From NCBI RefSeq assembly GCF_021917145.1, contig NC_061082.1:21364596-21428595 (forward strand): 64,000 nucleotides of DNA, given 5' to 3'. The position numbers were made by a program, and so were the translations under genes. Source of the DNA: Hypomesus transpacificus. Lineage: Eukaryota; Chordata; Actinopteri; Osmeriformes; Osmeridae. The notes below the pieces were generated by a model, which ran no database searches, was not told the DNA's origin, and was given only the letters and a program-made list of their open reading frames with translations. Positions 1,828-34,352 of the stretch are shown here, one piece after another. The number at the start of each line of letters is the position of its first letter. The stretch's first letter is position 1.

Positions 1828-1854
1828 TTCAGCACCGCTGAACTGGACAGCGAA
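1828..1854 (+). promoter_or_regulatory. RE1/NRSE-like REST site, expanded spacing, after V1
   Basis: Left half TTCAGCACC and right half GGACAGCGA, separated by 8 nt rather than the 2 nt of the classical RE1. It lies about 130 bp after the V1 donor in the 565-bp V1-V2 spacer. REST silences neuronal genes outside neurons, and REST elements are known from protocadherin clusters. Binding here is inferred. Confidence 0.7.
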
Positions 1855-2024
1855 ACGGTACTCCCCTTTATCAATTCACAATTATGTCTGGAATTATAGT
1901 TTGATAAAATACATGTATTTTTCTGGCACTTTTAGGATACCCTTTATGAATCTTAGTGACAGATGTCAGGGACCTAACTTCAAGTTCTAGAACCTGGATT
2001 TAAGAGTGCGCTCTCACTTCTGTA

Positions 2025-2051
2025 GACACAAGGCGTCGCTATAGACCGTGA
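2025..2051 (+). promoter_or_regulatory. CSE-type promoter element of V2 (class A)
   Basis: ACACAAGGCGTCGCTATAGA followed by CCGTG, about 215 bp before the V2 ATG. The GTCGCT core matches the conserved sequence element of clustered protocadherin promoters, a CTCF-bound element in mammals. A CTCCTCCTT box follows at 2090-2098. No obvious TATA box. The rest of the spacer holds the RE1 and no gene. Confidence 0.75.
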
Positions 2052-2262
2052 TTTAAAACGTAGTCTGATCACTAATCTATTATTACAAACTCCTCCTTTC
2101 TCTCCTGGCCACCATTGCGCGTATTGCTTTGTCAGTGTCGCACGATACCATACGTCTGAGGAACACGTATTTTAGAAGATTATGTTTGCATTTGAAACAA
2201 CTGTGCTTTTTTTAAAGTAACTGATCACAAACTCACAGATATTTAATAATCCTTGGATAACG

Positions 2263-4611
2263 ATGGATGTTTCCCCGTGGATTCTTTTCCCTCTGCTTTG
2301 TTTATGGGAGGTATCATCCGGTCAGATTTCTTACTCCGTCTCAGAGGAGGTGAACAAGGGAGCCGCTGTTGGAAATATTGCTAAAGATCTCAATCTCAAT
2401 GTTCAGGAACTGGAGTCTCGTATGTTTCAGGTTGTATCTGAATCGAGCAAGAAGTATTTTGATGTGAATCTGAAATCCGGTGTTTTGTTCGTAAATGAGA
2501 GAATCGACCGAGAGGAGATTTGTGGGACCAGTGAGAAATGCTCCCTGAGTTTACAGGCAATTGTGCAAAATCCCATGAGCATATTTCGCGTTGAAATTAA
2601 TATACTCGATATAAACGACAACGCACCTTCTTTCTCTGTTAATTCACTAACGTTAAATATAACTGAAAACACAGTTGCTGGAGAACGATTGTTTTTGCCG
2701 GTAGCTGAGGACGCGGATGTGGGCAGTAACTCAGTCAAGACCTACAAACTGAGTCCAAATGAACACTTCTCTTTGGATGTGCAGAGCGGAGGAGAGCAGA
2801 GTGTGTCTGCTGAGTTGGTGCTACAGAAACCTTTAGACCGAGAGAAACAGGCTGTGATTCAGCTCTTACTGACTGCTGTAGACGGAGGAAAACCTCCTAG
2901 ATCAGGGACGTTAGAAATTATGATAAATGTATTGGATAACAACGATAACAAACCAATTTTTAGCAAACCCCTATACAAAGTAAAAGTTGCAGAGAATGTT
3001 AAATTGGGCAGCAGAATAATATGCCTTACTGCAACAGATTTAGACGAAGGTATGAATAGTAAAATTATCTACTCATTTGTTGGACATGGCAATTCTAAAG
3101 GATACGGTTTGTTCTCTATCGATCCTCATTCTGGGGAAATATCATTAATAGGGGATCTGGACTATGAAAAAAATGTTGCGGTTGAGCTGCGCGTACAGGC
3201 TTCCGATCAAGGCCAGTCTCCTAAGATAACACAGTGCAAAGTTTTGGTAGAAGTAATTGACATGAATGACAATGCCCCACAAATATCAACGACTTCACTC
3301 ATGAGCACAGTGAGAGAGGATTCAGAATTAGGTACTGCAGTCGCTTTAGTAATATTCTCTGATAAAGACGGTGGTAAAAATGGAGTTGTGAACGGCCACA
3401 TCAGTAGAACTGTTCCGTTTAAACTGCAGTCGGCTTATAAAAACCAGTACTCTCTGGTAGTGGACGGACCTTTAGATAGAGAGCGTCAACCCCAGTACAA
3501 CATCATCATCACAGCCGTAGATGAGGGAACCCCCCCTCTCTCTAGCACCAGTGTCGTTACTGTGCACATTTCTGATGTGAACGACAACCCACCCCGCTTC
3601 CCAGAGCCCATTGTCAACGTGTATTTAAAAGAAAATAGTCCAGTTGGAAACCTGGTGGTTAGCGTAAATGCTGATGATGCGGATGAAAACGACAACGCGC
3701 GTGTCTCATATTCTCTGAAAGGTAGTGCTATGGCTTCATCGTTAATCAGCATTAATGATTTGACAGGCGAAATACACAGTCTGCAGTCGTTTAACTACGA
3801 AGAAACTAAACGATTCCAGTTCGAAGTTCAGGCCACAGACGGTGGTGTTCCTCCTCTGAGCAGCAACGTGAATGTGAACGTTTTTATCCTGGATGAAAAT
3901 GACAACACTCCTGTAATTCTCCCGCCCTATTCCGACCAAGGCACTCTCAACTCTGAGAACATTCCCTACTCTGCTGAAGCGGGTTACTTTGTGGCCAAGA
4001 TCAGGGCTGTAGACGCAGACTCTGGTTACAATGCGCTGCTCTCTTATCACATCTCTGAACCAAAGGGGCCGAATCTGTTCAGAATTGGAAGCAGCAATGG
4101 AGAGATAAGGACTAAGAGACGCATGAGTGACAATGACTTAAAAACTCACCCGCTGGTCATAATGGTGTCTGACAATGGAGACCCTTCCCTGTCTGCCACC
4201 GTGTCTATTGATGTTGCGGTGGTTGAAAGTACAGGTGACATGCAGACAACTTTCAGACAGCTACCAGTAAAAGAGGAGAGTTTCTCAGATCTAAACCTGT
4301 ACCTGCTCATCTCCATAGCCTCAGTATCAGTGATATTTCTACTGAGCCTCATCAGTTTAATAGCGGTGAAGTGCCACAAGACAGACGGCAGTTTCAGCAG
4401 GTACAGCGCCCCAATGATAACCACCCACCCTGACGGGAGCTGGTCTTACTCCAAATCTACTCAGCAGTATGACGTGTGTTTTAGCTCAGACACAATGAAG
4501 AGTGACGTAGTAGTTTTCCCCACGGCGTTTCCACCTGGTGACGGAGAGCTGATCAGTATCAATGGAGGAGACACTTTCAGTAGGACTCAAACTCTGCCCA
4601 CCTGCGAAAAG
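2263..4611 (+). CDS. pcdha: Protocadherin alpha variable exon V2
   Basis: Archetype of the row: 783 codons. Signal peptide about 1-20 ([20 protein letters not shown]); EC1 with the Cx5C motif CGTSEKC and RIDRE; calcium linkers at about 116 (DINDNAP), 225 (DNNDNKP), 333 (DMNDNAP), 438 (DVNDNPP) and 544 (DENDNTP); EC6; membrane helix about 678-702; then an 81-residue variable cytoplasmic segment ending LPTCEK. Start chosen because ATG sits in the cluster-wide leader GGATAACGATGGATG and opens a signal peptide. Donor AAG|gtaagc at 4611/4612; three more codons then a stop in the intron. No RGD is seen in EC1, unlike many mammalian alphas. Homophilic neuronal adhesion is the family role. Confidence 0.96.
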
Positions 4612-4878
4612 GTAAGCCAATAGTGAACACATTTTGACATGGAATGGTGTGGGATTTTAAGGATCTTTTGCAATACGTAGCTAGGACAGTTTTCTGGATT
4701 TGATCTACTTCACAGCCCTATTGGATTTGGTCATTGTCATTACCATTGTATTATAAACAATATAGTAGTAATAGTTATTCGAATGTAAGCGAGAATAAGC
4801 CACTATTTCATCTTTGTTTAAGTGTCAGCCCTCCACATTGTAGACACAATCCTGTTGAGGAGTTTCAGTGACATCAAA

Positions 4879-4905
4879 TTCAGCACCACTGAGTTGGACA
4901 GCAAC
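4879..4905 (+). promoter_or_regulatory. RE1/NRSE-like site, expanded spacing, after V2
   Basis: TTCAGCACC, 8-nt spacer, GGACAGCAAC. About 270 bp after the V2 donor. The right half deviates (GCAAC for GCGAC). Almost the same context recurs after V10 (28175). Confidence 0.6.
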
Positions 4906-5105
4906 TTGTGCCTCGAGTTTCTGGCATGTTTGAGTTTGGTTTCTTTCAGTATATTTAAAGATATTTGTATTTAGTCAGAACGGCTATTTTATTCTTTTCA
5001 CTGGCGTTCCAAATATCTCAAACTCAACTATTTAAAGCGGTAGCTTATTTCATTTACCATTCTAGTCAACAAAGTATTGTTGAATACACGAGTCAAGGGT
5101 ATATG

Positions 5106-5132
5106 AACACGTGGTGTCGCTGTAGACCGTGG
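5106..5132 (+). promoter_or_regulatory. CSE-type promoter element of V3 (class B)
   Basis: ACACGTGGTGTCGCTGTAGA then CCGTGG, about 205 bp before the V3 ATG; CTCCTCCTT box at 5163-5171. This version carries an E-box-like CACGTG absent from class A. The V2-V3 spacer (4612-5334) holds only this element and the RE1. Confidence 0.75.
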
Positions 5133-5334
5133 ATATTTTAATCTGATTTATCTATTTAGTAACTCCTCCTTCTTACGCGTCTATTGCTATTTAATGTTTT
5201 TGTCAAAAGGGTTGTGGTGAAGCACGGGACGCAGACGCGAGTTCGATGACCTAGGCGATTATGCTTGCGTTTAAAACAAATATATATAACTAATCACAAT
5301 AGCCTCACGGATATTAAGTAATCCTTGGATAACG

Positions 5335-7683
5335 ATGGATGTTTCCGTGTGGATTCTGTTCCCTCTGCTTTGTTTATGGGAGGTATCATCCGGTCAGATT
5401 TCCTACTCGGTTTCAGAGGAGGTGAACAAGGGAACCGCTGTCGGAAATATCGCTAAAGATCTCAATATCAATGTTCAGGAACTGGAGTCTCGTATGTTTC
5501 AAGTTGTATCTGAATCGAGCAAGAGCTATTTTGATGTGAACCTGAAGTCCGGTATTTTGTTCGTGAATGAGAGAATCGATCGAGAGGATCTTTGTGGGGC
5601 CAGCGAGAAATGCTCTCTAAATGTGCAGGCTGTGGCGCACAATCCCATGAGTATCTTTCGAATTGAAATAACAATTTTGGATATAAATGACAATGGTCCA
5701 ATTTTTACTGTTGAATCCCTCACTTTGAATGTTTATGAAAACGCAGCGGCGGGTGAACGTTTTCTTCTACCTTTGGCTGAGGACGCGGATGTGGGCAGTA
5801 ACTCAGTTAAAGCGTACAAGCTGAGTCCAAATGAACATTTCTCTCTGGATGTGCAGAGTGGAGGAGAGCAGAGTGTGTCTGCTGAGTTGGTGCTACAGAA
5901 ACCTTTAGACCGAGAGAAACAGACTGTGATTCAGCTGGTACTGATTGCTGTAGACGGAGGAAAACCTCCCAGATCAGGGACGGTACAGATTATGGTGAAC
6001 ATTTTGGATATCAACGATAATAACCCCGTTTTCAGCAAACCTCTTTATAAAGTGAAAGTGACAGAGAATGTTAAGAGAGGTACCAACATAATATCTCTAA
6101 CTGCAACAGATTTAGATGAAGGTATGAATGGTAAAATTATCTATTCTTTTGTGGGACACGGTAATGCCAAACAATATGACTTATTCTCTATCGACCCTAA
6201 TTCCGGGGAAATATCATTGAAAGGTGATCTGGACTATGAAGACAATGTAGGTGTAGAACTGCGAGTTCAGGCTGCCGATCAGGGCCATCCTCCAAAAACC
6301 ACACACTGCAAAGTTTTGGTGGAAATTACTGACTTGAATGACAACGCGCCACAGATATCAGTGACGTCACTCATGAGCACAGTTAGGGAAGATGCAGAGT
6401 CCGGGGCTGCGGTAGCGTTAGTAATGCTGTCTGATAAAGATGGCGGTAAAAATGGAGTTGTGAACGTTCACATCAGCGGAACTGTTCCGTTTAAACTGCA
6501 GTCGTCTTATAAAAACCAGTATTCTCTGGTAGTGGACGGACCTTTAGATAGAGAGCGTCACCCCCGGTACAATATCACCATCACAGCTGTAGATGAGGGA
6601 ACCCCCCCTCTCTCTAGCACCAGTGTTGTTATTGTGCAAATTTCTGATGTGAACGACAACCCACCTCGCTTCCTAGAGCCCAATGTCAACGTGTATTTAA
6701 AAGAAAATAGTCCAGTTGGAGACCTGGTCGTTAGCGTTAATGCTCATGATACTGATGAAAACGACAACGCGCGTGTCTCATATTCTTTGAAAGGTAGTGC
6801 TATGACTTCAACACTCATCAATATTAATGATTTGACGGGCGAAATACACAGTCTGCAGTCGTTTAACTACGAGGAGATGAAACGATTCCTGTTCCAAGTT
6901 CAGGCCACAGACGGTGGTGTTCCTCCTCTGAGCAGCAACGTGACTGTGAACGTTTTTATCTTGGATGAGAATGACAACACTCCTGTTATTCTCCCACCCT
7001 ATTCTGACCAAGGCTCTGTCAACTCTGAGAACATTCCTTACTCTGCTGAAGCGGGCTACTTTGTGGCCAAGATCAGGGCTGTAGATGCAGACTCTGGTTA
7101 CAATGCGCTGCTCTCTTATCACATCTCTGAACCAAAGGGGCCAAATCTGTTCAGAATTGGAAGCAGCAATGGAGAGATCAGGACTAAGAGACGCATGAGT
7201 GACAATGACTTAAAATCTCACCCGCTGGTCATAGTGGTGTCTGACAATGGAGACCCTTCCCTGTCTGCCACTGTGTCTATTGATGTTGTTGTGGTTGAAA
7301 GTACAGGTGACATTCAGACAACTTTCAGACAACTACCAGTAAAGGAGGAGAGTTTCTCAGATCTAAACCTGTATCTGCTCATCTCCATAGCCTCAGTATC
7401 AGTGATATTTCTACTGAGCCTCATCAGTTTAATCGCGGTAAAATGCCACAAGACAGACGGCAGTTTCAGCAGGTACAGTGCCCCAATGATAACCACCCAC
7501 CCTGACGGGAGCTGGTCTTACTCCAAATCTACTCAGCAGTATGACGTGTGTTTTAGCTCAGACACAATGAAGAGTGACGTGGTAGTTTTCCCCACGTCGT
7601 TTCCACCTGGTGACGGAGAGCTGATCAGTATCAATGGAGGAGACACTTTCAGTAGGACTCAAACTCTTCCCACCTGCGAGAAG
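5335..7683 (+). CDS. pcdha: Protocadherin alpha variable exon V3
   Basis: 783 codons with the same order as V2: signal peptide, six cadherin repeats, membrane helix, LPTCEK end. EC1 carries CGASEKC (Cx5C). EC1 ends DINDNGPIF, a variant shared with V6 and V11, where glycine replaces alanine in the linker. Class B promoter. Donor GAG-AAG|gtaagg at 7683/7684. The EC3 linker is DLNDNAP and the EC4 start [21 protein letters not shown]-type (V8 and V12 share it). ATG chosen by the conserved leader CCTTGGATAACGATGG. Nothing broken seen. Confidence 0.96.
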
Positions 7684-7825
7684 GTAAGGATATAGCATAC
7701 TTCTTAAAGAAAATTGCATAATGCAACGTCAATGTTATAATTTATTTTTGACTTGTGGTTTTTAAATTATCAACAATTGTTTATAATGGTTGATTATGCT
7801 GCAATGCAATGGTATAAAGTTAATG

Positions 7826-7852
7826 GTCAGCACAACTGTGCTGGACAGCGAC
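7826..7852 (+). promoter_or_regulatory. RE1/NRSE-like site in V3 3' flank
   Basis: GTCAGCACA, 8-nt spacer, GGACAGCGAC. Left half has two changes from consensus. The site sits only about 50 bp before the breakpoint where V3's flank joins the truncated V4 coding sequence. Confidence 0.55.
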
Positions 7853-7900
7853 ATTGCAAAGTTGGTACTTTGGAATTCACAAATATGTTTGGAATTGTAG

Positions 7901-9354
7901 TGGACTATGAAGAAAATGTCGGAGTAGAATTGCGCGTGAAGGCTGCTGATCAAGGACATCCTCCGAAAACTACAAACTGCAAAGTTTTGGTAGAAATAAT
8001 CGATATAAATGATAATGCGCCACAAATATCAATTATGTCACTTATGAGCACAGTGAGAGAAGATTCTGAATCAGGTGCAGCGGTTGCATTGATAGGACTC
8101 TCTGATAAAGACGGTGGTAAAAATGGAGTTGTGAACGGCCACATCAGTGGAACTGTTCCGTTTAAACTGCAGTCGTCTTATAAAAACCAGTACTCTCTAG
8201 TAGTGGACGGACCTTTAGATAGAGAGCGTCACCCCCAGTACAACATCACCATCACAGCCGTAGATGAGGGAACCCCCCCTCTCTCTAGCACCAGTGTTGT
8301 TACCGTGCGCATTTCTGATGTGAACGACAACCCACCCCTCTTCCCAGAGCCCATTGTCAACGTGTATTTAAAAGAAAATAGTCCAGTTGGAGACCTGGTA
8401 GTTAGCGTGCATGCACATGATACTGATGAAAACGACAATGCACATATATCATATTCTCTTAAAGGTAGTGCTATGGCTTCATCGCTAATCAACATTAATG
8501 ATTTGACGGGTGAAATATACACTTTGCAGTCGTTTAACTACGAAGAAACTAAACGATTCCAGTTCCAAGTTCAGGCCACAGACGGTGGTGTTCCTCCTCT
8601 GAGCAGCAACGTGACTGTGAACGTTTTTATCCTGGATGAGAATGACAACACTCCTGTTATTCTCCCGCCCTATTCTGACCAAGGCTCTGTCAACTCTGAG
8701 AACATTCCCTACTCTGCTGAAGCGGGCTACTTTGTGGCCAAGATCAGGGCTGTAGACGCAGACTCTGGTTACAATGCGCTGCTCTCTTATCACATCTCTG
8801 AACCAAAGGGACCGAATCTGTTCAGAATTGGAAGCAGCAATGGAGAGATCAGGACTAAGAGACGCATGAGTGACAATGACTTGAAATCTCACCCGCTGGT
8901 CATAGTGGTGTCTGACAATGGAGACCCTTCCCTGTCTGCCACTGTGTCTATTGATGTTGTGGTGGTTGAAAGTACAGGTGACATGCAGACAACTTTCAGA
9001 CAGCTACCAGTAAAGGAGGAGAGTTTCTCAGATCTAAACCTGTACCTGCTCATCTCCATAGCCTCAGTATCAGTGATATTTCTACTGAGCCTCATCAGTT
9101 TAATAGCGGTAAAGTGCCACAAGACAGACGGCAGTTTCAGCAGGTACAGCGCCCCAATGATAACCACCCACCCTGACGGGAGCTGGTCTTACTCCAAATC
9201 TACTCAGCAGTATGACGTGTGTTTTAGCTCAGACACAATGAAGAGTGACGTGGTAGTTTTCCCCACGTCGTTTCCACCTGGTGACGGGGAGCTGATCAGT
9301 ATCAATGGAGGAGACACTTTCAGTAGGACTCAAACTCTGCCCACCTGCGAAAAG
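7901..9354 (+). pseudogene. 5'-truncated protocadherin alpha variable exon V4
   Basis: Coding homology begins abruptly at about 7901 inside EC3 ([12 protein letters not shown]) and runs intact through EC4, EC5, EC6, the membrane helix and LPTCEK to the donor at 9354/9355 (AAG|gtaagg). Signal peptide, EC1, EC2 and the first part of EC3 are missing, about 300 codons. Upstream, 7684-7900 aligns with the 3' flank of V8, so it is spacer DNA and not exon. No CSE or leader lies between V3 and this exon. The frame stays open back to about 7753 by chance, but that stretch has no signal peptide. EC3-EC4 ([19 protein letters not shown] in part) is closest to V6. Best read as a deletion relic; its still-good donor could only be used in read-through transcripts. 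Confidence 0.85.
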
Positions 9355-9503
9355 GTAAGGGGATTTCACACTACTAAAAGGAAATTGCACAATGCAAAGT
9401 TGATGCCATTGGCTATTGTTTCTTTTCTACTTCATTTTTTACATTTGTTAAGGTGTATTCGTTTTGGTTGTTTACACTGCATTGTATTATCATCAAGTTA
9501 GCG

Positions 9504-9530
9504 TTCAGCACCGCTGAACTGGACAGCGAA
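9504..9530 (+). promoter_or_regulatory. RE1/NRSE-like site, expanded spacing, after V4
   Basis: TTCAGCACC, 8-nt spacer, GGACAGCGAA. Retained behind the truncated V4, about 150 bp after its donor. Confidence 0.68.
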
Positions 9531-9724
9531 ACCGTAAAATTGGTAATCCTCTCTTTGTATTTACAATTATGTCTGGAATTGTAGTTTAATGAAATCAAAC
9601 CCTTTTCCTGGCACTTGTAGATCTTTAGGATTCCTCTATGAATATTAGGTATAGTAGTGAGAGCTATCAGGGACCATACTTTAAGTTCTAGAAACTGGAT
9701 TGAAGAGTGCGCTCTCAATTCTGT

Positions 9725-9751
9725 AGACACAAGGCGTCGCTATAGACCATG
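9725..9751 (+). promoter_or_regulatory. CSE-type promoter element of V5 (class A)
   Basis: ACACAAGGCGTCGCTATAGA then CCATG, about 220 bp before the V5 ATG; CTCCTCCTT box at 9791-9799. The V4-V5 spacer is nearly the same as the V7-V8 spacer. Confidence 0.75.
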
Positions 9752-9969
9752 ATTTAAAACGCAATCTGATCACTAATCTATTATTACAAACTCCTCCTTT
9801 CTCTCCTGGCCTCCATTGCGCGTATTGCTTTGTCAGTGTTGCACGATACTATACCTCTGAGGAACACGTATTCAGAAGAGTATGCTTGCATTTGAAACAA
9901 CTGTGCTTATTTTTTTTGAAGTAACTGATCTCCACAACCTCACGGATATTTAATAATCCTTGGATAACG

Positions 9970-12309
9970 ATGGATGTTTCCGTGTGGATTCTTTTCCCTC
10001 TGCTTTGTTTATGGGAGGTATCATCCGGTCAGATTTCTTACTCCGTCTCAGAGGAGGTGAACAAGGGAACCGCTGTTGGAAATATCGCTAAAGACCTCAA
10101 TCTCAATGTTCAGGAACTGGAGTCTCGTATGTTTCAGGTTGTATCTGAATCGAGCAAGAAGTATTTTGATGTGAATCTTAAGTCCGGTGTTCTGTTTGTT
10201 AATGAGAGAATCGACCGAGAGGAGATTTGTGGGACCAGTGAGAAATGCTCTCTGAGTATAGAGGCAATTGCGCACAATCCCATGAGCATCTTTCGCGTTG
10301 AAATAACTATAATCGATATAAATGACAACGCGCCTTCTTTCTCTGTTAACGCTTTAACTTTAAATTTAACAGAAAACATAGTTACAGGAGAGCGATTTCT
10401 TCTGCCTGTGGCTAAGGACACGGATGCGGGCAGTAACTCAGTGAAAGCCTACAAGCTGAGTCCAAATGAACACTTCTCTCTGGATGTGCAGAGCGGAGGA
10501 GAGCAGAGTGTGTCTGCTGAGTTGGTGCTACAGAAACATTTAGACCGAGAGAAACAGGCTGTGATTCAGCTCGTACTGACTGCTGTAGACGGAGGGAAAC
10601 CTCCACGATCCGGTACATTACAGATTGTCATCCATGTCATGGATATCAATGACAACAGTCCAATTTTCAGCAAATCCTTGTACAAAGTAAAAGTTGCAGA
10701 GAATGTTAAAATTGGATATAAATTAATACGTGTCGAAGCAACCGATATAGATGAAGGTATGAATGGTGAAATTGTTTACTCTTTCGTTGGCCATGGTAAT
10801 GCTAAAGAATATAATATATTTTTTATTGATCCTCATTCAGGGGAAATATCAGTGATAGGTGATCTTGATTATGAGGCAAATGTTGGCATTGAGTTGCGCG
10901 TGCAGGCGGCTGATCAAGGACAATATCCCAAAACTACCCATTGCAAAGTTTTAGTAGAAGTTATCGACATGAATGACAATGCACCACAGATATCCGTGAC
11001 GTCACTTATAAGCACAGTTAGAGAGAATTCAGAGTCGGGTACTGCAGTTGCATTGATAAGACTTTCTGATAAAGATGGCGGTAAAAATGGAGTTGTGAAT
11101 GTTCACGTCAGCGGAAATGTGCCGTTTAATCTGCAGTCGTCTTATAAAAACCAGTATTCTCTGGTAGTGGACGGACCTTTAGATAGAGAGCGGCACCCCC
11201 AGTACAACATCACCATCACAGCCGTAGATGAGGGAACCCCCCCTCTCTCTAGCACCAGTGTCGTTACTGTGCAAATTTCTGATGTGAACGACAACCCACC
11301 CCGCTTCCCAGAGCCCATTGTCAACGTGTATCTGAAAGAAAATAGTCCAGTTGGAGACGTGGTAGTTAGCGTGCATGCGCATGATACTGATGAAAACAAT
11401 AACGCGCGTGTCTCATATTCTCTGAAAAGCACTTCATCGCTTATCAACATTAATGATTTGACGGGTGAAATATCTACTCTGCAGTCGTTTAACTACGAAG
11501 AAACTAAACGATTCCAGTTCCAAGTTCAGGCCACAGACGGTGGTGTTCCTCCTCTGAGCAGCAACGTGACTGTGAACGTTTTTATCCTGGATGAGAATGA
11601 CAACACTCCTGTTATTCTCCCACCCTATTCTGACCAAGGCTCTGTCAACTCTGAGAACATTCCCTACTCTGCTGAAGCGGGCTACTTTGTGGCCAAGATC
11701 AGGGCTGTAGACGCAGACTCTGGTTACAATGCGCTGCTCTCTTATCACATCTCTGAACCAAAGGGGCCGAATCTGTTCAGAATTGGAAGCAGCAATGGAG
11801 AGATCAGGACTAAGAGACGCATGAGTGACAATGACTTAAAAACTCACCCGCTGGTCATAGTGGTGTCTGACAATGGAGACCCTTCCCTGTCTGCCACCGT
11901 GTCTATTGATGTTGTGGTGGTTGAAAGTACAGGTGACATGCAGACAACTTTCAGACAGCTACCAGTAAAGGAGGAGAGTTTCTCAGATCTAAACCTGTAT
12001 CTGCTCATCTCCATAGCCTCAGTATCAGTGATATTTCTACTGAGCCTCATCGGTTTAATAGCGGTTAAGTGCCACAAGACAGACGGCAGTTTCAGCAGGT
12101 ACAGCGCCCCAATGATAACCACCCACCCAGACGGGAGCTGGTCTTACTCCAAATCTACACAGCAGTATGACGTGTGTTTTAGCTCAGACACAATGAAGAG
12201 TGACGTGGTAGTTTTCCCCACGTCGTTTCCACCTGGTGACGGGGAGCTGATCAGTATCAATGGAGGAGACACTTTCAGTAGGACTCAAACTCTGCCCACT
12301 TGTGAAAAG
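9970..12309 (+). CDS. pcdha: Protocadherin alpha variable exon V5
   Basis: 780 codons, three fewer than V2: the EC5 loop reads [10 protein letters not shown] where others have [14 protein letters not shown]6 shares this deletion. Signal peptide [20 protein letters not shown]; Cx5C CGTSEKC; linkers DINDNAP, DINDNSP, DMNDNAP, DVNDNPP, DENDNTP. The EC2 segment reads QKHLDREKQ (His for the usual Pro). EC4 has VRENSESG instead of VREDSESG, so the usual acidic residue after the glutamate is Asn. Donor TGT-GAA-AAG|gtaagg at 12309/12310. Start by conserved leader. Intact. Confidence 0.96.
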
Positions 12310-12518
12310 GTAAGGAGATCGCATACTTCTAAAAGATAATAGCAGAATGCAACGTCAATGATATTGGGTAAAGTTTATCTTTGACTTGTGGTGTCTAACG
12401 TTTGGTAGGGTGTGTTGGTGTCGTGATGAACGTATTTGGGACTGTTTGTTCAAAAAGTGGTTGTTTATTCTTTGCTGCATTGTGATCAACACTCTGTTGA
12501 ATATATTAGAAAAAATAT

Positions 12519-15231: not shown

Positions 15232-15258
15232 TTCAGCACCGCTGTGCTGGACAGCGAC
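15232..15258 (+). promoter_or_regulatory. RE1/NRSE-like site, expanded spacing, after V6
   Basis: TTCAGCACC, 8-nt spacer, GGACAGCGAC: perfect half-sites. A transposon insertion begins about 13 bp downstream without disrupting it. Confidence 0.7.
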
Positions 15259-15270
15259 ATCACAGAGTTA

Positions 15271-15772
15271 GCGCAAGGGGTCCCATTATCGTCCACCTAG
15301 TTCTCGACGCTCGTTAGCAATGTTACCAAAATTTCGTTATAACACAAATTTAAATCGTTATGTCACAGCATTATATTTTAATATATAGATACACACCTAT
15401 TTCATAACAGTCCGGTTTTGAAATCCAATCCGGATATGCCTAGAAATGTTACTTTCCTGATTTTAGCAGTTAGCCAGGGGGTCCCATTATCGTCCACCCA
15501 ACCACTTTCAATGGAGAATTGTCAGTTTGACGCTGCGGAAGGCAGATGGTACACATATTCAATGTACACGATATGTACACATACTCAAATCTCGAAGTAA
15601 GAAGCTGTAATTTGGTGTGCAGCAATATAAGATCTCTACATGTCGATGAGTTACTTTCTTTCGTTGCTGCTGCATATCTTCTTTAAGAAATTAACGGAAG
15701 AAACGGTTGTGGACGATAATGGGGCCCCGAACGTTGGAGATTTAGAGTGGACGATAATAGGGCCCTTTACAC
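15271..15772. mobile_element. MITE-like DNA transposon with doubled inverted ends
   Basis: The left end (15277-15296) reads GGGGTCCCATTATCGTCCAC, and an inverted match closes the element at about 15747-15766. Additional copies lie inside: same orientation at about 15478-15497, inverted at about 15709-15728. The interval interrupts spacer sequence that is continuous in the V3, V7 and V8 flanks, so it is an insertion of about 0.5 kb. Two outer and two inner repeats suggest one element nested in another, or a doubled terminal repeat. No transposase frame. No clear target-site duplication was found, so superfamily is left open. Confidence 0.7.
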
Positions 15773-18683: not shown

Positions 18684-18710
18684 TTCAGCACCGCTTCACT
18701 GGACAGCAAA
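18684..18710 (+). promoter_or_regulatory. RE1/NRSE-like site, expanded spacing, after V7
   Basis: TTCAGCACC, 8-nt spacer, GGACAGCAAA; right half weaker than most. About 150 bp after the V7 donor. Confidence 0.55.
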
Positions 18711-21642: not shown

Positions 21643-21669
21643 GTCAGCACCACTGTGCTGGACAGCGAC
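21643..21669 (+). promoter_or_regulatory. RE1/NRSE-like site, expanded spacing, after V8
   Basis: GTCAGCACC, 8-nt spacer, GGACAGCGAC. This flank is the intact counterpart of the V3 flank that was fused to V4. Confidence 0.65.
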
Positions 21670-24729: not shown

Positions 24730-24756
24730 TTCAGCACCGCTGTCTCGGACAGCGAC
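24730..24756 (+). promoter_or_regulatory. RE1/NRSE-like site, expanded spacing, after V9
   Basis: TTCAGCACC, 8-nt spacer, GGACAGCGAC: perfect half-sites, about 285 bp after the V9 donor, in a flank otherwise unlike the common spacers. Confidence 0.7.
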
Positions 24757-25299
24757 ACGTGACTCCCCATGCTCTGGCTTGATATATAAGGATTCTCTTT
24801 GCTTTTTTTTTTTTTTTTACATTTCTGTAACCACATACTCATTTTAATTCAACGGTCTTGGTACAATTTTTCATTCTAGTAGTATAAAGGTATTCACCTG
24901 CCACTTGTTATAGGTTGCAATGTCACCTTGCGTTTGAGTTTTTCCTGGAGTTGGGCAATAGACCTATCGTGGCTCATTGTTTTCACATACTACCAGCGCA
25001 GGTGTCGTAGCTTTCAATATTCTTATTTCTTACGTATTTCAGCCACATGCCATCACAACTGTATTGTAGTAGTAAAAGGTTACTTTTGTTTACCCTTGCG
25101 TAATTACGCATATCCAATATTGATTTGCAAGAGCGTCCAACATATACAAGCTGCAATTAATTAGTAGTATTTATTATTATTTTTCTACATGGACTACAGT
25201 AGTCTCCCGAATTATATGTATCCGTTTCATAAACGCGAATATTGATATGATTCCAGATGAATCAACGCTCTCGGTTTATTGCTCACCCATTTCTGAAGA

Positions 25300-25326
25300 A
25301 ACACAGGATGTCGCTGTTGACCGTGA
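25300..25326 (+). promoter_or_regulatory. CSE-type promoter element of V10
   Basis: ACACAGGATGTCGCTGTTGA then CCGTG, about 215 bp before the V10 ATG; CTCCTCCTT box at 25355-25363. Core and box are kept though flanks are neither class A nor B. The long V9-V10 spacer (24447-25533) otherwise shows only an AT-rich stretch and a poly-T run near 24802. Confidence 0.75.
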
Positions 25327-25533
25327 AAGTTATTATTGCTGACAAACTGCTGGGCTCCTCCTTCTTTTATGGTGTAATATGATTCGATTCGTCTTTCCGA
25401 GAAGAGAAACGAGAAGTGTTCAGATACCGAATGAGGAAGTACAGAGATAGATTTCGTCAAATGGGACTATTCCCCTATCTGTTTTCAGTTGAAGTCCATT
25501 GTATTATTTTGATTTGCGTGTGCCTGTGAAGCG

Positions 25534-27903
25534 ATGGCTCTCGAGCGAAGGAGTCCGGTGTTGTTTTGGATATGGTGTCTGATGCTTTGTTCATGTGGAT
25601 TTTCCGATGGACAGCTGTTGTATTCTGTTTCCGAGGAGGTGGATAGAGGAACATTTGTTGGAAACATCGCCAAGGATCTACATGTAAATATACAGGAACT
25701 GGAATCAAGGGAAGTTCAAATTGTCACCGGTTCCCAAAAAAAGTATTTTGACATCGACACAAAGACGGGTGCTATTTTTGTAAATGAAAGAATTGACAGA
25801 GAGACACTGTGCCAGAATTCGGTAAAATGTTCTGTCGATGTAGAGGTGGTGTTTAATAATCCTGTGCAAATCCATCGTTTAGAAATCAACATCATAGACG
25901 TAAATGACAACGCGCCCTTGTTTGGAGAAAGCGTTCATAAAGTCAACATGTATGAATCTGCTTCCGCTGGCGATAGATTTCCCTTGCCGTCTGCCAGTGA
26001 TCCTGACGTCGGTAGCAACGCTGTAAAAACCTATACGTTGAGTCCTAATGAATACTTCTCTCTGGATGTACAGAGAGGAGGAGAGCAGAGTGTGTCCGCT
26101 GAGTTGGTGCTACAGAAACTTTTAGACCGAGAGAAACAGGCTGAAATTGGTCTTATTCTCACGGCTGTAGACGGAGGAAAACCTCCCAGATCAGGGACGT
26201 TACAGATTGTAATTAATTTGATTGATGTGAACGACAATACTCCAACTTTCAGTAAGCCACTTTATAAGGCTGTTGTGGAAGAAAATTCTGCTATTGGGAT
26301 GTCAGTTCTCACATTGAATGCAACGGATGCAGACGCAGAGGGAAATAGCGAGATAGAATATTCATTCACCGGTCAAGGCGGTTTGAATGACGTGTTTGAG
26401 ATTAACAAACACACAGGTGAAATAACGGTTAAAATGGATCTAGACCACGAGGAGAACTCAGCATTTGAAATCCGCGTAGAAGCAAAAGATAAGGGTGTTC
26501 CACCTAGAAGTGCCCACGCAAAAGTATTAATTGAAATACTTGACGTGAACGACAACGCACCAGAGATAATACTGACATCTCTCCCAGGCGCTGTGAAGGA
26601 AGACGCTAAGAAAGGAACAGTTGTAGCTTCAATAAATGTGCGTGACAAAGATGGTGGTAAAAATGGGCAAGTTGCGGCAAAGATTATGGGATCTACTCCA
26701 TTTAAATTACAGTCGTCTTATAAGAATTATTATTCTCTGGTTGTAGATGGGCCTCTTGACAGAGAAAATATCTCGTTGTATAATATAACAATAAGAGCCA
26801 CAGACGAAGGTTTGCCTCCTCTCTCCACCAGCAGTGTAATCACTGTTCACGTCTCTGACGTGAATGACAACGCGCCTCGCTTTACAGAGCAGGTAGTTAA
26901 CGTGTATTTGAAGGAGAACACTCCAGTAGGTGAACGCGTTGGAAATGTGACTGCGAATGATCCTGATGACAGTGCAAATTCTCAACTGACGTATGCTTTA
27001 TTAGGTAACACAGGTGATGCTCGTTTGTCCACCTTTTTTAATCTGAACTCTTTAACTGGTGAACTATACAGCCTGCAGTCGTTTAACTATGAAGAAACTA
27101 AACGATTCCAGTTCCAAGTTCAGGCCACAGACGGTGGCGTTCCTCCTCTGAGCAGCAACGTGACTGTGAACGTTTTTATCCTGGATGAGAATGACAACAC
27201 TCCTGTTATTCTCCCACCCTATTCTGACCAAGGCTCTGTCAACTCTGAGAACATTCCCTACTCTGCTGAAGCGGGCTACCTTGTGGCCAAGATCAGGGCT
27301 GTAGACGCAGACTCTGGTTACAATGCGCTGCTCTCTTATCACATCTCTGAACCAAAGGGACCGAATCTGTTCAGAATTGGAAGCAGCAATGGAGAGATCA
27401 GGACTAATAGACGCATGAGTGACAATGACTTAAAAACTCACCCGCTGGTCATAATGGTGTCTGACAATGGAGACCCTTCCCTGTCTGCCACTGTGTCTAT
27501 TGATGTTGTGGTGGTTGAAAGTACAGGTGACATGCAGAGAACTTTCAGACAACTACCAGTAAAGGAGGAGAGTTTCTCAGATCTAAACCTGTATCTGCTG
27601 ATCTCCATAGCCTCAGTATCCGTGATACTTCTATTGAGCCTCATCAGTTTAATAGCGGTCAAATGCCACAAGACAGATGGCAGTTTCAGCAGGTACAGCG
27701 CCCCAATGATAACCACCCACCCTGACGGGAGCTGGTCTTACTCCAAATCTACTCAGCAGTATGACGTGTGTTTTAGCTCAGACACAATGAAGAGTGACGT
27801 GGTAGTTTTCCCCACGTCGTTTCCACCTGGTGACGGGGAGCTGATCAGTATCAATGGAGGAGACACTTTCAGTAGGACTCAAACTCTGCCCACCTGCGAG
27901 AAG
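25534..27903 (+). CDS. pcdha: Protocadherin alpha variable exon V10 (divergent ectodomain)
   Basis: 790 codons. Signal peptide around 1-26 ([20 protein letters not shown]...), mature start about [18 protein letters not shown]. Cx5C is CQNSVKC. Linkers DVNDNAP (EC1), DVNDNTP (EC2), DVNDNAP (EC3), DVNDNAP (EC4), DENDNTP (EC5). EC1, EC3 and EC4 are diverged from the V2 group. An EC2 island ([20 protein letters not shown]) and the whole EC5-end to LPTCEK tract are nearly identical to the others. Private changes in the common tract: [22 protein letters not shown]. Donor GAG-AAG|gtaagc at 27903/27904. Intact. Confidence 0.96.
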
Positions 27904-28174
27904 GTAAGCCAATAGGGAAAACATTTTACATGGAATGGTGTGGGATTTTAAGGATCCTTTGCAACATGTAGTTAGGTCTGTTTTTGGATTTTATCTATTT
28001 CACAGCCCTATTGGATTTTTTAATTGTCATTATCATTGTTTTATTTAAGTAAACAATGTAGTTGTAATAGATATTTGAATGTAAGCGAGAATAAGCTAAA
28101 ATGTCAGTCTTGTTTAAGTTTCAGCCTTCCACATTATAGACACAATCATGTTGAGGAGTTTCAGTGACTTCAAA

Positions 28175-28201
28175 TTCAGCACCACTGAGTTGGCCAGCAA
28201 C
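28175..28201 (+). promoter_or_regulatory. RE1/NRSE-like site, degraded right half, after V10
   Basis: TTCAGCACC, 8-nt spacer, GGCCAGCAAC. The central GGACAG is changed to GGCCAG, so REST binding may be lost. Homologous to the site at 4879. Confidence 0.45.
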
Positions 28202-28376
28202 TTTTGTTTGTCGAGTTTCTGGCATGTTTGAGGTTGGTATCTTTCAGTAACTTTAGAGTTATTTGTATTCAGTCAGAATACGAATGTCTCAAACTCATCT
28301 GTTTAAAGCGGCAGCTTATTTTATTTACCATTCGGGTCAACAAAATATTGTTGAATACATGATTGAAGGGTATATG

Positions 28377-28402
28377 AACACGTGGTGTCACTGTAGACCG
28401 TG
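28377..28402 (+). promoter_or_regulatory. CSE-type promoter element of V11 with altered core
   Basis: ACACGTGGTGTCACTGTAGA then CCGTGG, about 205 bp before the V11 ATG; CTCCTCCTT box at 28434-28442. Class B, but the core is GTCACT instead of GTCGCT: the CpG is lost by a G-to-A change. Confidence 0.7.
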
Positions 28403-28605
28403 GATATTTTCATCTGATTTCTCTTTATAGTAACTCCTCCTTCTTACGCGTCTATTGCTGTTAAAGGTTTTTGTCAGAAGGGTTGTGGTGAAGCACGGAA
28501 CGCAGACGAGATTTCGGTGATTTAGGCGATTATGCTTGCATTTGAAACAAATATATATAATTGATCACAATAGCCTCACGGATATTAAATGATCCTTGGA
28601 TAACG

Positions 28606-30954
28606 ATGGATGTTTCCGTGTGGAGATTGTTCCATCTGCTCTGTTTATGGGAAGTATCATCCGGTCAGATTTCTTACTCCGTCTCAGAGGAGGTGAACAA
28701 GGGAACCGCTGTTGGAAATATCGCTAAAGATCTCAATCTCAATGTTCAGGAACTGGAGTCTCGTATGTTTCAGGTTGTATCTGAATCGAGCAAGAAGTAT
28801 TTTGATGTTAATCCAAAATCCGGTGTTTTGTTTGTGAATGAAAGAATCGACCGAGAGGATATTTGTGGGACCAGTGAGAAATGCTCTCTGAGTGTACAGG
28901 CTGTGGTGCACAATCCCATGAGCATATTTCGCGTTGAAATAACTGTAATGGATATAAATGACAATGGTCCCGTTTTTACTGTCAATTTTGTCACGTTGAA
29001 TGTTTCTGAAAACGCAGCGGCGGGTGAGCGTTTTCTTCTACCTTTAGCTGAGGACGTGGATGTGGGCAGTAACTCAGTGAAAGCTTACAAACTGAGTGCA
29101 AATGAACACTTCTCTCTGGATATGCAGAGCGGAGGAGAGCAGAGAGTGTCTGCTGAGTTGGTGCTACAGAAACCTTTAGACCGGGAGAAACAGGCTGTGA
29201 TTCCGCTCGTACTGACTGCTGTAGACGGAGGAAAACCTCCCAGATCAGGGACGGTACAGATTATGGTAAATGTACTGGATATCAACGATAATAACCCCGT
29301 TTTTAGCAAGCCTCTTTTCAAAGTGAAAGTTGCAGAGAATGTTAAGATAGGTACCAAAATAATATCTCTAACCGCAACAGATTTAGACGAGGGTATGAAT
29401 AGTAAAATTATCTATTCGTTTGTGGGACACGGTACTGCAAAACACTATGAATTATTCTCTATCGATCCTAATTCCGGGGAAATATCATTGAAAGGTGATC
29501 TGGACTATGAAGAAAATGTAGGTGTAGAACTGCGAGTTCAGGCTGCTGATCAAGGCCATCCTCCAAAAACCACACACTGCAAAGTTTTAGTAGAAGTCAT
29601 CGACAAGAATGACAACGCGCCACTGATATCAGTGACGTCACTGATGAGCTCAGTTAGAGAGGATTCTGAATCAGGTGCAGCGGTAGCGTTAGTAATGCTG
29701 TCTGATAAAGATGGCGGTAAAAATGGAGTTGTGAACGGCCACATCAGTGGAACTGTTCCGTTTAAACTGCAGTCGTCTTATAAAAACCAGTACTCTCTGG
29801 TAGTGGACGGACCTTTAGATAGAGAGCATCACCCCCAGTACAACATCACCATCACAGCCGTAGATGAGGGAACCCCCCCTCTATCTAGCACCAGTGTTGT
29901 TACTGTGCATATTTCTGATGTGAACGACAACCCACCCCGCTTCCCAGAGCCCATTGTCAACGTGTATTTAAAAGAAAATAGTCCAGTTGGAGACCTGGTA
30001 GTTATTGTAAATGCTCATGACGTGGATGAAAACGACAACGCGCATATATCATATTGTCTTAAAGGAAGAGCTATGGCTTCATCGCTTATCAACATTAATG
30101 ATTTGACGGGCGAAATACATAGTCTGCAGTCGTTTAACTATGAGGAAATGAAACGGTTCCAGTTCCAAGTTCAGGCCACAGACGGTGGTGTTCCTCCTCT
30201 GAGCAGCAACGTGACTGTGAACGTTTTTATCCTGGATGAGAATGACAACACTCCTGTTATTCTCCCGCCCTATTCTGACCAAGGCTCTGTCAACTCTGAG
30301 AACATTCCCTACTCCGCTGAAGCGGGCTACTTTGTGGCCAAGATCAGGGCTGTAGACGCAGACTCTGGTTACAATGCGCTGCTCTCTTATCACATCTCTG
30401 AACCAAAGGGGCCGAATCTGTTCAGAATTGGAAGCAGCAATGGAGAGATCAGGACTAAGAGACGCATGAGTGACAATGACTTAAAAACTCACCCGCTGGT
30501 CATAGTGGTGTCTGACAATGGAGACCCTTCCCAGTCTGCCACTGTGTCTATTGATGTTGTGGTGGTTGAAAGTACAGGTGACATGCAGACAACTTTCAGA
30601 CAGCTACCAGTAAAAGAAGAGAGTTTCTCAGATCTAAACCTGTATCTGCTCATCTCCATAGCCTCAGTATCAGTGATATTTCTACTGAGCCTCATCAGTT
30701 TAATAGCGGTAAAGTGCCACAAGACAGACGGCAGTTTCAGCAGGTACAGCGCCCCAATGATAACCACCCACCCTGACGGAAGCTGGTCTTACTCCAAATC
30801 TACTCAGCAGTATGACGTGTGTTTTAGCTCAGACACAATGAAGAGTGACGTGGTAGTTTTCCCCACGTCGTTTCCACCTGGTGACGGGGAGCTGATCAGT
30901 ATCAATGGAGGAGACACTTTCAGTAGGACTCAAACTCTGCCCACCTGCGAAAAG
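28606..30954 (+). CDS. pcdha: Protocadherin alpha variable exon V11
   Basis: 783 codons from ATG 28606, chosen for the leader GGATAACGATGGATG; the open frame extends 45 nt upstream without a Met start. Signal peptide [20 protein letters not shown]; Cx5C CGTSEKC; EC1 ends [11 protein letters not shown]3 linker DKNDNAP, with Lys in place of the usual hydrophobic residue. An extra cysteine appears in EC5 (SYCLKGRAM), and GDPSQSATV in EC6 replaces GDPSLSATV. Donor AAG|gtaagc at 30954/30955. Read-through of the intron would add about 93 residues to 31233. Otherwise intact; EC3-EC4 close to V3. Confidence 0.96.
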
Positions 30955-31460
30955 GTAAGCAGGATCAATCCACAGCATAACTGTGACCTTGTATACTGCA
31001 TACTAGGTAAACTTGCTTTTTTTCATCCCTATTTTTACATAACTCATAAATTCAATGACCTGACGTCTTCAGTTTTGTTTTTTTTGTGTTCAAAATTGCC
31101 ACCTTTCGAGTGTGAAGCAACACATGCCTCCTCACTCTGTGTGTCACGAGAACGTTGTAGCTACTCATTTAGGCTAGTTTTATATTCTCACGGTTTGCTC
31201 AGTAGACATCCGTTTTTGCTTCGGGTTGTATGATCCGAATTCGTTTTAGATGTAAGTTCGTCATTGAAACGTCAGGAATTAATTTAGGAATTTCTCACGT
31301 GACAATTTTGTTGTTGTCCTGGTTCCACTACTTTGATTTCGTTCACAACAGTTTCAATGCTATTCAATCTTAAATAAGCTTTATTCTGGTATGTTATTGG
31401 GTTTGAACAGTCTGTAGATTTGCTCCAAACATGGGCCATGACAGTTCAAAATCACATTAT

Positions 31461-31470
31461 AGACAGCGAC
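31461..31470 (+). promoter_or_regulatory. RE1 right half-site only, after V11
   Basis: AGACAGCGAC without a recognisable left half in place. Position in the spacer matches the other RE1-like sites, so this may be a decayed copy. Low confidence. Confidence 0.3.
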
Positions 31471-31502
31471 TCGCAACGTTCTTTCGCTAATAAACAAGAA
31501 CT

Positions 31503-31529
31503 AACACGTGGTGTCGCTGGAGACCGCGG
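31503..31529 (+). promoter_or_regulatory. CSE-type promoter element of V12 (class B)
   Basis: ACACGTGGTGTCGCTGGAGA then CCGCGG, about 220 bp before the V12 ATG; CTCCTCCTT box at 31558-31566. Only about 30 bp from the half-RE1 upstream. The rest of the V11-V12 spacer (30955-31738) shows nothing else. Confidence 0.75.
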
Positions 31530-31738
31530 TAATATTTTAATAATCTCTTAACGGGAACTCCTCCTTCTTCTCTAGATTTTGTTGTTGAGGCTATTGTCAG
31601 ACGGGCTGTATTGAAACGAAGATCGAGTAAGGCCTCTGTAACACGCATGGAGGCTCTTTGGGATATTATATGATAAAACCAGTGTTTCCTAGTCTTGTAT
31701 ATTCTACATAAGATTTACCTGATTTTCCTTGGATAACG

Positions 31739-34087
31739 ATGGATGTTTCCGTTTGGATTCTGTTCCCTCTGCTTTGTTTATGGGAGGTATCATCCGGTCA
31801 GATTTCCTACTCGGTTTCAGAGGAGGTGAACAAGGGAACCGCTGTTGGAAATATCGCTAAAGATCTCAATCTCAATGTTCAGGAACTGGAGTCTCGTATG
31901 TTTCAGGTTGTATCTGAATCCAACAAGAAGTATTTCGATGTGAATCTGAAGTCCGGTGTTTTGTTCGTGAATGAACGAATCAACCGAGAGGAGCTTTGTG
32001 GGAAAAACGAGAAATGCTCTCTGAGTGTACAGGCTGTGGCACACAATCCAATGAGCATCTTTCGTGTTGATATTAACATCCTCGATATGAATGACAACGC
32101 ACCTTTGTTCTCAGCTAGATCACTAACACTAAATATAACGGAAAATGCTATCTCCGGGGAACGTTTTTTTCTTCCGGTGGCTAAAGACGCGGATGTTGGC
32201 AGTAACTCAATCAAGACCTACAAGCTGAGTCCAAATGAACACTTCTCTCTGGATGTGCAGAGCGGAGGAGAGCAGAGTGTGTCTGCTGAGTTGGTGCTAC
32301 AGAAACCTTTAGACCGAGAGAAACAGGCAGTGATTCAGCTCGTACTGACTGCTGTAGACGGAGGAAAACCTCCCAGAACTGGTACTTTACAGATCGCAGT
32401 GAATGTATTGGATAATAATGACAATAAACCAGTTTTTAGCAAATCGTTGTACAAAGTCAAAGTAGCAGAGAATGCAAAAATTGGATCAACGATTATCTCT
32501 CTCTCTGCAACAGATTTAGATGAAGGAATTAATAGTTACATTCTTTACTCGTTTGTTGGGCACGGTAATGCAAAAGATTATGAACTCTTCTCTATTGATC
32601 GTTATTCTGGGGAAATATCAGTAACAGGTAATCTGGACTATGAAGAAAATGTTGGGGTGGAATTGCGTGTTCAGGCTGCAGATCAGGGCCAACCTCCCAA
32701 AACCACTCAGTGCAAAGTTTTAGTAGAAGTCATCGACATGAATGACAACGCGCCACAGATATCAGTGACGTCACTCATGAGCACAGTTAGGGAAGATGCT
32801 GAATCAGGTGCAGCGGTAGCGTTAGTAATGCTGTCTGATAAAGATGGCGGTAAAAATGGAGTTGTGAACGGCCACATCAGCGGAACTGTTCCGTTTAAAC
32901 TGCAGTCGTCTTATAAAAACCAGTACTCTCTGGTAGTGGACGGACCTTTAGATAGAGAGCGTCACCCACAGTACAACATCACCATCACAGCCGTAGATGA
33001 GGGATCCCCCCCTCTCTCTAGCACCAGTGTTGTTACTCTGCATATTTCTGATGTGAACGACAACCCACCCCGCTTCCCAGAGCCCATTGTCAACGTGTAT
33101 TTAAAAGAAAATAGTCCAGTTGGAAACCTGGTAGTTATTGTAAATGCGCACGATGCGGATGAAAACGACAACGCGCATATATCATATTCTCTGAAAGGTA
33201 GTGCTATGGCTTCATCACTAATCAATATTAATGATTTGACTGGCGAAATATACAGTCTGCAGTCGTTTAACTACGAGGAAACTAAACGATTCCAGTTCCA
33301 AGTTCAGGCCACAGACGGTGGTGTTCCTCCTCTGAGCAGTAACGTGACTGTGAACGTTTTTATCCTGGATGAGAATGACAACACTCCTGTTATTCTCCCA
33401 CCCTATTCTGACCAAGGCTCTGTCAACTCTGAGAACATTCCCTACTCTGCTGAAGCGGGCTACTTTGTGGCCAAGATCAGGGCTGTAGACGCAGACTCTG
33501 GTTACAATGCGCTGCTCTCTTATCACATCTCTGAACCAAAGGGGCCGAATCTGTTCAGAATTGGAAGCAGCAATGGAGAGATCAGGACTAAGAGACGCAT
33601 GAGTGACAATGACTTAAAAACTCACCCGCTGGTCATAGTGGTGTCTGACAATGGAGACCCTTCCCTGTCTGCCACTGTGTCTATTGATGTTGTGGTGGTT
33701 GAAAGTACAGGTGACATGCAGACAACTTTCAGACAGCTACCAGTAAAGGAGGAGAGTTTCTCAGATCTAAACCTGTATCTACTCATCTCCATAGCCTCAG
33801 TATCCGTGATATTTCTATTGAGCCTCATCAGTTTAATAGCGGTAAAGTGCCACAAGACAGACGGCAGTTTCAGCAGGTACAGCGCCCCAATGATAACCAC
33901 CCACCCTGACGGGAGCTGGTCTTACTCCAAATCTACTCAGCAGTATGACGTGTGTTTTAGCTCAGACACAATGAAGAGTGACGTGGTGGTTTTCCCCACG
34001 TCGTTTCCACCTGGTGACGGAGAGCTGATCAGTATCAATGGAGGAGATACTTTCAGTAGGACTCAAACTCTGCCCACCTGCGAGAAG
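31739..34087 (+). CDS. pcdha: Protocadherin alpha variable exon V12
   Basis: 783 codons, archetypal order. Signal peptide [20 protein letters not shown]; Cx5C CGKNEKC. The EC1 motif usually read RIDRE is RINRE here (codon AAC at about residue 82), replacing an acidic residue at a position that in cadherins helps bind calcium between EC1 and EC2. Linkers DMNDNAP, DNNDNKP (as in V2), DMNDNAP, DVNDNPP, DENDNTP. Donor GAG-AAG|gtgaga at 34087/34088. Its 3' flank differs from the usual spacers and holds a canonical RE1. Intact. Confidence 0.96.
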
Positions 34088-34331
34088 GTGAGATACTTTT
34101 CTAAAACTCTCTCATAAATCGCCAATATGGTGCGTGGTAGTTTCAAGCGGAGATGAATCATCATACTTTATTCTTATTTGTAGGGACATATAATATGGTT
34201 TAAATTACTCCATGATTGACTCTTTGAAGATTGAGTAGGCTATTGGTTTGTACTTGAAAACGCAACCATTGGATGTGGGCTGGCGAATGCTTTTGCTGTG
34301 TGTAGCATGAGCTCACGAAAACGAAATCTCT

Positions 34332-34352
34332 TCCAGCACCTCGGACAGCGCC
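34332..34352 (+). promoter_or_regulatory. Canonical 21-bp RE1/NRSE (REST site) after V12
   Basis: TCCAGCACC, 2-nt spacer TC, GGACAGCGCC: classical RE1 spacing with one change from consensus in the left half. About 245 bp after the V12 donor. The strongest REST site in the window by eye. The rest of 34088-34900 is AT-rich and featureless. Confidence 0.85.

Follow-up and report, generated by a model that had tools for sequence, protein, structure and literature searches.

Serial REST-type sites with an 8-nt gap upstream of the variable exons of a clustered protocadherin array in Hypomesus transpacificus

Introduction

REST (also NRSF), a repressor of neuronal genes, recruits corepressors, and its silencer elements (NRSEs) consist of a left and a right half-site separated by a gap. 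In fish, such sites have been described in the promoter regions of the clustered protocadherins (Pcdh) of fugu, where a review of this work reports both canonical and non-canonical forms (Tan et al. 2010, via PMC3601302). According to the same review, removing the NRSEs from Xenopus transgenics abolished neural restriction, with transgenes becoming ubiquitous in tadpoles. In human, NRSE classes are described as common to the members of a PCDH subcluster, and include canonical 2-nt sites as well as non-canonical sites with gaps of 7–9 nt, among them an 8-nt site at HS5-1 (Tang et al. 2021, PMC8096226). That study gives 2 or 7–9 nt as the gaps of human REST, and in its model of the protein at sites with an 8-nt gap, finger 6 swings out of the groove. 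Similarly, reporter work on atypically spaced RE1 silencers, which have ordered halves with 8 or 9 nt between them, describes silencing by 8- and 9-nt gaps only among the non-canonical arrangements (Mouri et al. 2022, PMC9903721).

Here we analyze a stretch of 64,000 nucleotides of the H. transpacificus genome (the window; assembly GCF_021917145.1, contig NC_061082.1, positions 21,364,596 to 21,428,595), for which a preliminary description had proposed REST half-site pairs with a fixed gap behind serial variable exons. The RE1 silencers of Mouri et al. are reported as single sites across the human genome, whereas those presented here form a serial array. The fugu set, as known from the review description, shares the kind of site and the setting; in the present locus, the gap is 8 nt in one array and 9 nt in the next.

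Results

A partial clustered protocadherin array in the window

We find 13 alternate variable exons (V1–V13, last exonic bases 1697 to 37508) in tandem, each with cadherin repeats and a splice donor, followed by shared constant exons. The last of these matches Pfam Cadherin_tail (E 2.1e-34, at 58409), while the first, read by eye, is putatively located near 51.8 kb. Two exons are incomplete, i.e. V1, which is cut by the window start, and V4, whose 5' part is missing. The array is taken here as alpha rather than another protocadherin class, an assumption based on the tail sequence. The last variable exon is called C-type, putatively and from its position alone, and no NRSE pair is found within 1,600 nt upstream of it. 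A second protocadherin locus is present on contig C57 of this 437-Mb genome, the window being part of contig C23, and two loci fit what is described for a teleost (PMC7811963).

A CSE-like promoter element (CACNNGGYGTCGCT) has 12 matches with at most 2 mismatches, against 0.07 expected, and is located 222–245 nt before the exon start in 11 of the 12 exons V2–V13, the exception being the broken V4 (Table 1). Based on this position and the CGCT core, CTCF is the putative partner of the CSE; using a rough CTCF matrix, the CSEs are not among the 40 best matches. In translations, the 3' parts of V1–V13, including the transmembrane stretch, are nearly identical between exons, which is expected because regional gene conversion has been described for fugu protocadherins (PMC1852091).

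Table 1. Features of the window and of the adjoining array, with positions counted from the first letter of the window.
Feature	Position	Strand	Remark
NRSE before V2	1828..1854	+	8-nt gap, family AB
CSE-like element of V2	2027..2047	+	
Variable exon V2	2263..4611	+	cadherin repeats, transmembrane part, splice donor
NRSE before V3	4879..4905	+	8-nt gap, family C
CSE-like element of V3	5108		
NRSE before V4	7826..7852	+	8-nt gap, family AB, left half GTCAGCACA; exon 5'-truncated
Variable exon V4	7900..9354	+	5' part and CSE missing, donor kept; start set by hand from tblastn
NRSE before V5	9504..9530	+	8-nt gap, family AB
CSE-like element of V5	9728		
CSE-like element of V6	12522		
NRSE before V7	15232..15258	+	8-nt gap, family AB
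CSE-like element of V7	15944		
NRSE before V8	18684..18710	+	8-nt gap, family AB
CSE-like element of V8	18908		
NRSE before V9	21643..21669	+	8-nt gap, family AB
CSE-like element of V9	21852		
NRSE before V10	24730..24756	+	8-nt gap, family D (flanks unrelated)
CSE-like element of V10	25302		
NRSE before V11	28175..28201	+	8-nt gap, family C
CSE-like element of V11	28379		
CSE-like element of V12	31505		
NRSE before V13	34332..34352	+	2-nt gap
CSE-like element of V13	34903		
Last variable exon	46613..49291	+	ORF to its stop
Last constant exon	58410..58717	+	Pfam Cadherin_tail
NRSE before first exon of next array	62278..62298	-	2-nt gap, 3 mismatches
CSE-like element of first exon of next array	62564..62584	+	2 mismatches
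First variable exon of next array (start)	62835..64000	+	
15 NRSEs of next array	+65635 to +112432		9-nt gap; L019-L023

Nine half-site pairs share an 8-nt gap

The preliminary description had listed half-site pairs 8 nt apart in the spacers after V1–V4 and V6–V10. All nine are present on the plus strand, with 0–2 mismatches relative to the consensus it gave (TTCAGCACC-N8-GGACAGCGAC), and their starts fall 126–284 nt past the last exonic base, in agreement with the 130–290 nt or so that had been reported. On one strand, the left half (TTCAGCACC) precedes the right half (GGACAGC), and the gap is 8 nt in nine of nine, i.e. within the 7–9 nt of wide-gap NRSEs and not 3–6 nt. Shuffles of the whole window contain a mean of 0.03 such pairs and a maximum of 1, compared with 9 observed.

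A shuffled-spacer background, the comparison on which the earlier claim was said to depend, gives a similar outcome. Specifically, we scanned the 12 spacers alone (8,809 bp, with the end of the spacer preceding the broken V4 set by hand) for halves with at most 2 mismatches each to the canonical halves, at gaps of 0–20 and in any arrangement. Seven gap-8 pairs are observed, compared with a mean of 0.001 in 1000 dinucleotide shuffles, and the only other pairs are one at gap 2 and one convergent at gap 2, so no other arrangement recurs. Two of the nine sites fall outside this limit, with 3 mismatches to GGACAGCGCC in each right half.

These shuffles overstate the surprise, given that most of the site count reflects tandem duplication. 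The flanks of the nine sites form three families when compared with shuffled controls, named here by the exon that precedes the spacer: V1, V3, V4, V6, V7, and V8 (AB), V2 and V10 (C), and V9 (D). As such, the nine sites are not nine independent events. Between families, the flanks have no clear similarity (z at most 2.0) and the gap sequences agree at 3–6 of 8 positions, while the half-sites agree at 15–19 of 19. This agreement suggests that a single ancient site persisted as the sequence around it changed, or that sites were gained more than once. These families had been overlooked in the preliminary description.

The family structure also bears on the possibility that the sites are relics, i.e. 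that an ancestral NRSE was copied along with the exons and that most copies have since lost their binding or their role. Common flanks at six of the nine sites, and other common flanks at two more, are what such copying would leave. Likewise, within family AB (11 spacers, upstream copy included and V6 spacer left out) we do not find the alpha site to be conserved above its own flanks: 39% of windows do at least as well in indel number and 25% in identity. V6 and V12 manage without an NRSE, and a copy persists before the broken V4. However, relics would hardly keep 15–19 identical half-site positions across families with unrelated flanks, nor gaps confined to 2, 8, or 9 nt over the 48 pairs found in the wider region (see below), and the second locus has the same kind of sites with another gap and strand. 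We therefore regard the relic reading as unlikely. In the array with 9-nt gaps, the 28-nt site is free of indels in 14 comparisons (mean elsewhere 7.8) and has an identity of 0.89 versus 0.68 elsewhere, a modest signal that 7.5% (indels) and 9.0% (identity) of windows match.

Regarding V4 itself (7826-9354), the first cadherin repeats, the start, and the CSE are gone, while the NRSE and donor are retained, and the NRSE falls within a reading frame that continues open into the exon. In the upstream copy, an identical NRSE precedes an exon of full length, suggesting that V4 is a fusion produced by unequal exchange.

Canonical gaps, spacers without a site, and weak half-sites

The site with a 2-nt gap reported after V12 is real, although it is not the single canonical one it was held to be: the window has two 2-nt sites, and the surrounding 264 kb have 11. 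The second one in the window, on the minus strand at 62278-62298, had been overlooked. Because this 2-nt site and a CSE-like element both lie past the constant exons, we considered a distal enhancer like HS5-1 at 62.3 kb; tblastn reveals a protocadherin exon from ~62.8 kb, and the two elements are most simply the promoter of that exon. We also considered whether the spacers after V9 and V12 are homologous, with 8 and 2 nt differing by one 6-nt indel. Their site-to-CSE distances are nearly equal (571 and 570 nt) and the local score is 58, compared with a shuffled mean of 44 (sd 5.6); the score takes in the NRSE itself and is suggestive only, and this homology was not accepted.

The spacer after V5 has no NRSE, as described; its start resembles one spacer family and its end another, with the NRSE part absent. 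By contrast, the right half reported after V11 (AGACAGCGAC at 31461) is weak. The window holds 61 right halves at 2 mismatches or fewer, and this one begins 44 nt before the CSE, away from the usual place of the NRSE, so we rejected it as an NRSE relic.

Gap length differs among arrays

In the 264 kb of C23 around the window, 48 pairs with at most 4 mismatches are found at gaps of 2 (11), 8 (20), and 9 nt (17), with none at other gaps from 0 to 20, whereas the reversed-motif control yields 3. The next array has a 9-nt gap before 15 of 15 successive exons (166253 to 213082 of the joined sequence), and this gap is constant even where its sequence differs. The alpha sites with 8-nt gaps number 17 in this region, with 8 belonging to an upstream near-copy and thus not independent. 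In this near-copy (L012-L018), joined positions 30-77.7 kb repeat the alpha array at 80-124 kb, up to a 100-N gap, with identities of 97.3% over 16.3 kb, 98.7% over 12.8 kb, and 93.3% over another 6.5 kb; it may have arisen by recent tandem duplication or be a duplicated haplotype of the assembly.

The second locus has other gaps. Among its alpha-like exons, five of nine spacers have a pair. In four of these, the best pair has a 2-nt gap and lies on the minus strand, overlapped in one case by a weaker 8-nt pair. The best pair of the fifth spacer has an odd 14-nt gap and overlaps a weaker 2-nt pair. For the other spacers of this locus, 9 of 16 have a pair, with gaps of 8 (three), 7 (two), 2 (two), 9 (one), and 10 nt (one). 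Overall, both gap and strand seem to reflect the descent of the arrays, and gap length appears to be set by array ancestry within the limits that REST tolerates. The uniform 8 nt that the preliminary description singled out as a specific pattern thus needs no special function, being a known REST gap whose uniformity follows array ancestry. One narrow literature search returned no match for array-specific gaps, which may still be published.

Genome-wide, 112 pairs of exact half-sites are found compared with 0 for the reversed pattern. Among 100 of the 112 listed, gaps are 2 (57), 8 (14), 9 (14), 10 (7), 11 (3), and others (5), with none from 3 to 7 nt, and 11 of the 14 listed gap-8 pairs belong to the two Pcdh loci. 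A scan with a shorter right half (100 of 105 matches listed) includes 72 listed pairs with gaps of 3–20 nt outside the two Pcdh loci, and these peak at 9 nt (24), followed by 10 (16), 8 (15), and 11 (7); 10 fall outside gaps 8–11, i.e. 7 (2), 4–5 (2), and 16–19 (6). Thus, among the matches listed, the gap spectrum of this species has peaks at 2 and 8–10 nt, and resembles that of human REST (2 or 7–9 nt), being perhaps a base or two wider. Gaps of 10 and 11 nt are common outside the Pcdh loci (16 and 7 of the 72 listed), beyond the 7–9 nt reported in the human work (PMC8096226).

The sites are located upstream of variable exons

Given that each site is found between two exons, we asked which of the two it belongs to. 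In the 264 kb, 45 of the 48 pairs precede a variable exon, so that 45 of the 54 exons have one each; the region counted (up to 1,600 nt ahead of a variable exon, but not beyond the exon before it) makes up 20.5% of the sequence. The corresponding binomial figure (9e-28) is too small because copies are treated as independent. This position upstream of variable exons, which three isolated exons share, is the one described for fugu. The human PCDH NRSEs are found inside variable exons and in enhancers (PMC8096226), whereas none of the 48 pairs lies within the 54 exons here, with the V4 start placed manually right behind its site. We accordingly rejected NRSEs within exons, as known in mammals; the 11 gap-20 pairs that appear in the window at a looser cut are weak and are all copies of one conserved coding stretch. 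At the cut used, 9 of the 54 exons have no pair, V6, V12, and V14 among them, and silencing therefore cannot need one NRSE per promoter.

The preliminary description had placed REST on the intronic side, i.e. as a downstream element acting just after the preceding exon. The sites do begin 126–284 nt past a splice donor, and in alpha, over 8 of 9 sites and counting the two long spacers, their distance from the previous exon is less variable (sd 70 nt) than that to the next (sd 204 nt). However, the complete spacers are only 457–1,087 nt long, so every site is near both exons, and two spacers account for the larger alpha spread, one of them long and the other carrying an insertion. Across the other six alpha spacers, the sd is 18 nt to the next exon versus 66 nt from the previous one, and in the next array it is 47 versus 138 nt (15 of 15 sites). 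The linkage of site and following promoter by distance is thus clear in the next array and mixed in alpha.

Distances to the CSE differ between the arrays, which counts against the promoter reading. From the start of the NRSE, they are 198–228 nt in six spacers and 570–571 nt before V10 and V13; by array, the site-to-CSE distance is 173–203 nt in the six alpha spacers and 251–457 nt in the next array. In the V7 spacer the NRSE and CSE are 711 nt apart because of an insertion of ~490 nt. This segment (15277-15765), located between the two elements, has inverted ends (GGGGTCCCATTATCGTCCACC and near-reverse copies) and looks like a small DNA transposon.

Exons without a close upstream neighbor provide further evidence. 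Three isolated exons have an NRSE 427–537 nt upstream, with the nearest variable exon about 2.8–13 kb before the site. V1 of the window's array has a 2-nt NRSE on the minus strand (L018:8819-8839), 486 nt upstream, and no variable exon within 8 kb before the site. The same holds for the first exon of the next array, whose NRSE is on the minus strand 537 nt upstream and ~3.6 kb after the last constant exon. For the third exon (window position -11758), the NRSE is weaker (3 mismatches, 9-nt gap, minus strand) and lies 427 nt upstream, 2.75 kb after the neighboring variable exon. The site is therefore tied to the following exon. Together with the description of the fugu NRSEs as promoter elements (PMC3601302), these exons argue against action from the preceding exon, which we consider improbable.

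A location near splice donors could also suggest an RNA element, i.e. a structure or sequence signal directing splicing to the constant exon. For example, the nine sites share one strand, and TTCAGC can pair with GCTGAA in some copies. We rejected such a hairpin because it is not conserved: base pairs never change on both sides together, and shuffled sequences perform equally well. Moreover, V5 and V11 keep their donor with no element after it, the NRSEs that precede V1 and the next array lie on the opposite strand, and the gaps match those described for a protein that binds DNA. It is very unlikely, more so than either reading above, that the sites act in RNA.

Discussion

Taken together, we find it very probable that the sites are REST/NRSF silencer elements of the following exon's promoter, with a gap inherited by tandem duplication. 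Recognition by REST, as proposed in the preliminary description, is well supported at the level of sequence: half-site words, order, strand, permitted gaps, and the genome-wide gap spectrum all agree with it. As far as sequence can tell, the sites fit the known fugu-type system of promoter NRSEs in sequence, gap, and place.

Under this promoter reading, each putative NRSE would belong to the promoter of the following variable exon, upstream of its CSE. In non-neural cells, REST would place fingers 3–5 on the right half and fingers 7–8 on the left half, with finger 6 bridging the gap of 8 or 9 nt; bound REST would then recruit corepressors, and the following promoter would be kept silent. We infer that the gap was inherited as exon and promoter were duplicated in tandem, with a founder with an 8-nt gap filling the alpha array and one with a 9-nt gap filling the next, while the tolerance of REST would exclude most other gap lengths.

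REST-based neural restriction of protocadherins, a known biology, would mostly explain the serial sites, and the array-by-array gap is the part worth following. One could speculate that the REST gap is array-specific (8 nt in alpha, 9 nt in the next array, and 2 nt on the other strand in the sister alpha-like exons where a site is found) and that it tunes REST affinity, so that arrays would differ in how easily they escape silencing as neurons mature; we consider this conjecture a long shot. In any case, the tandem arrays represent a natural experiment on REST spacing, with many like promoters in one locus. Because gaps of 2, 8, and 9 nt and promoters with no site occur together there, the effect of spacing on silencing would be testable in vivo.
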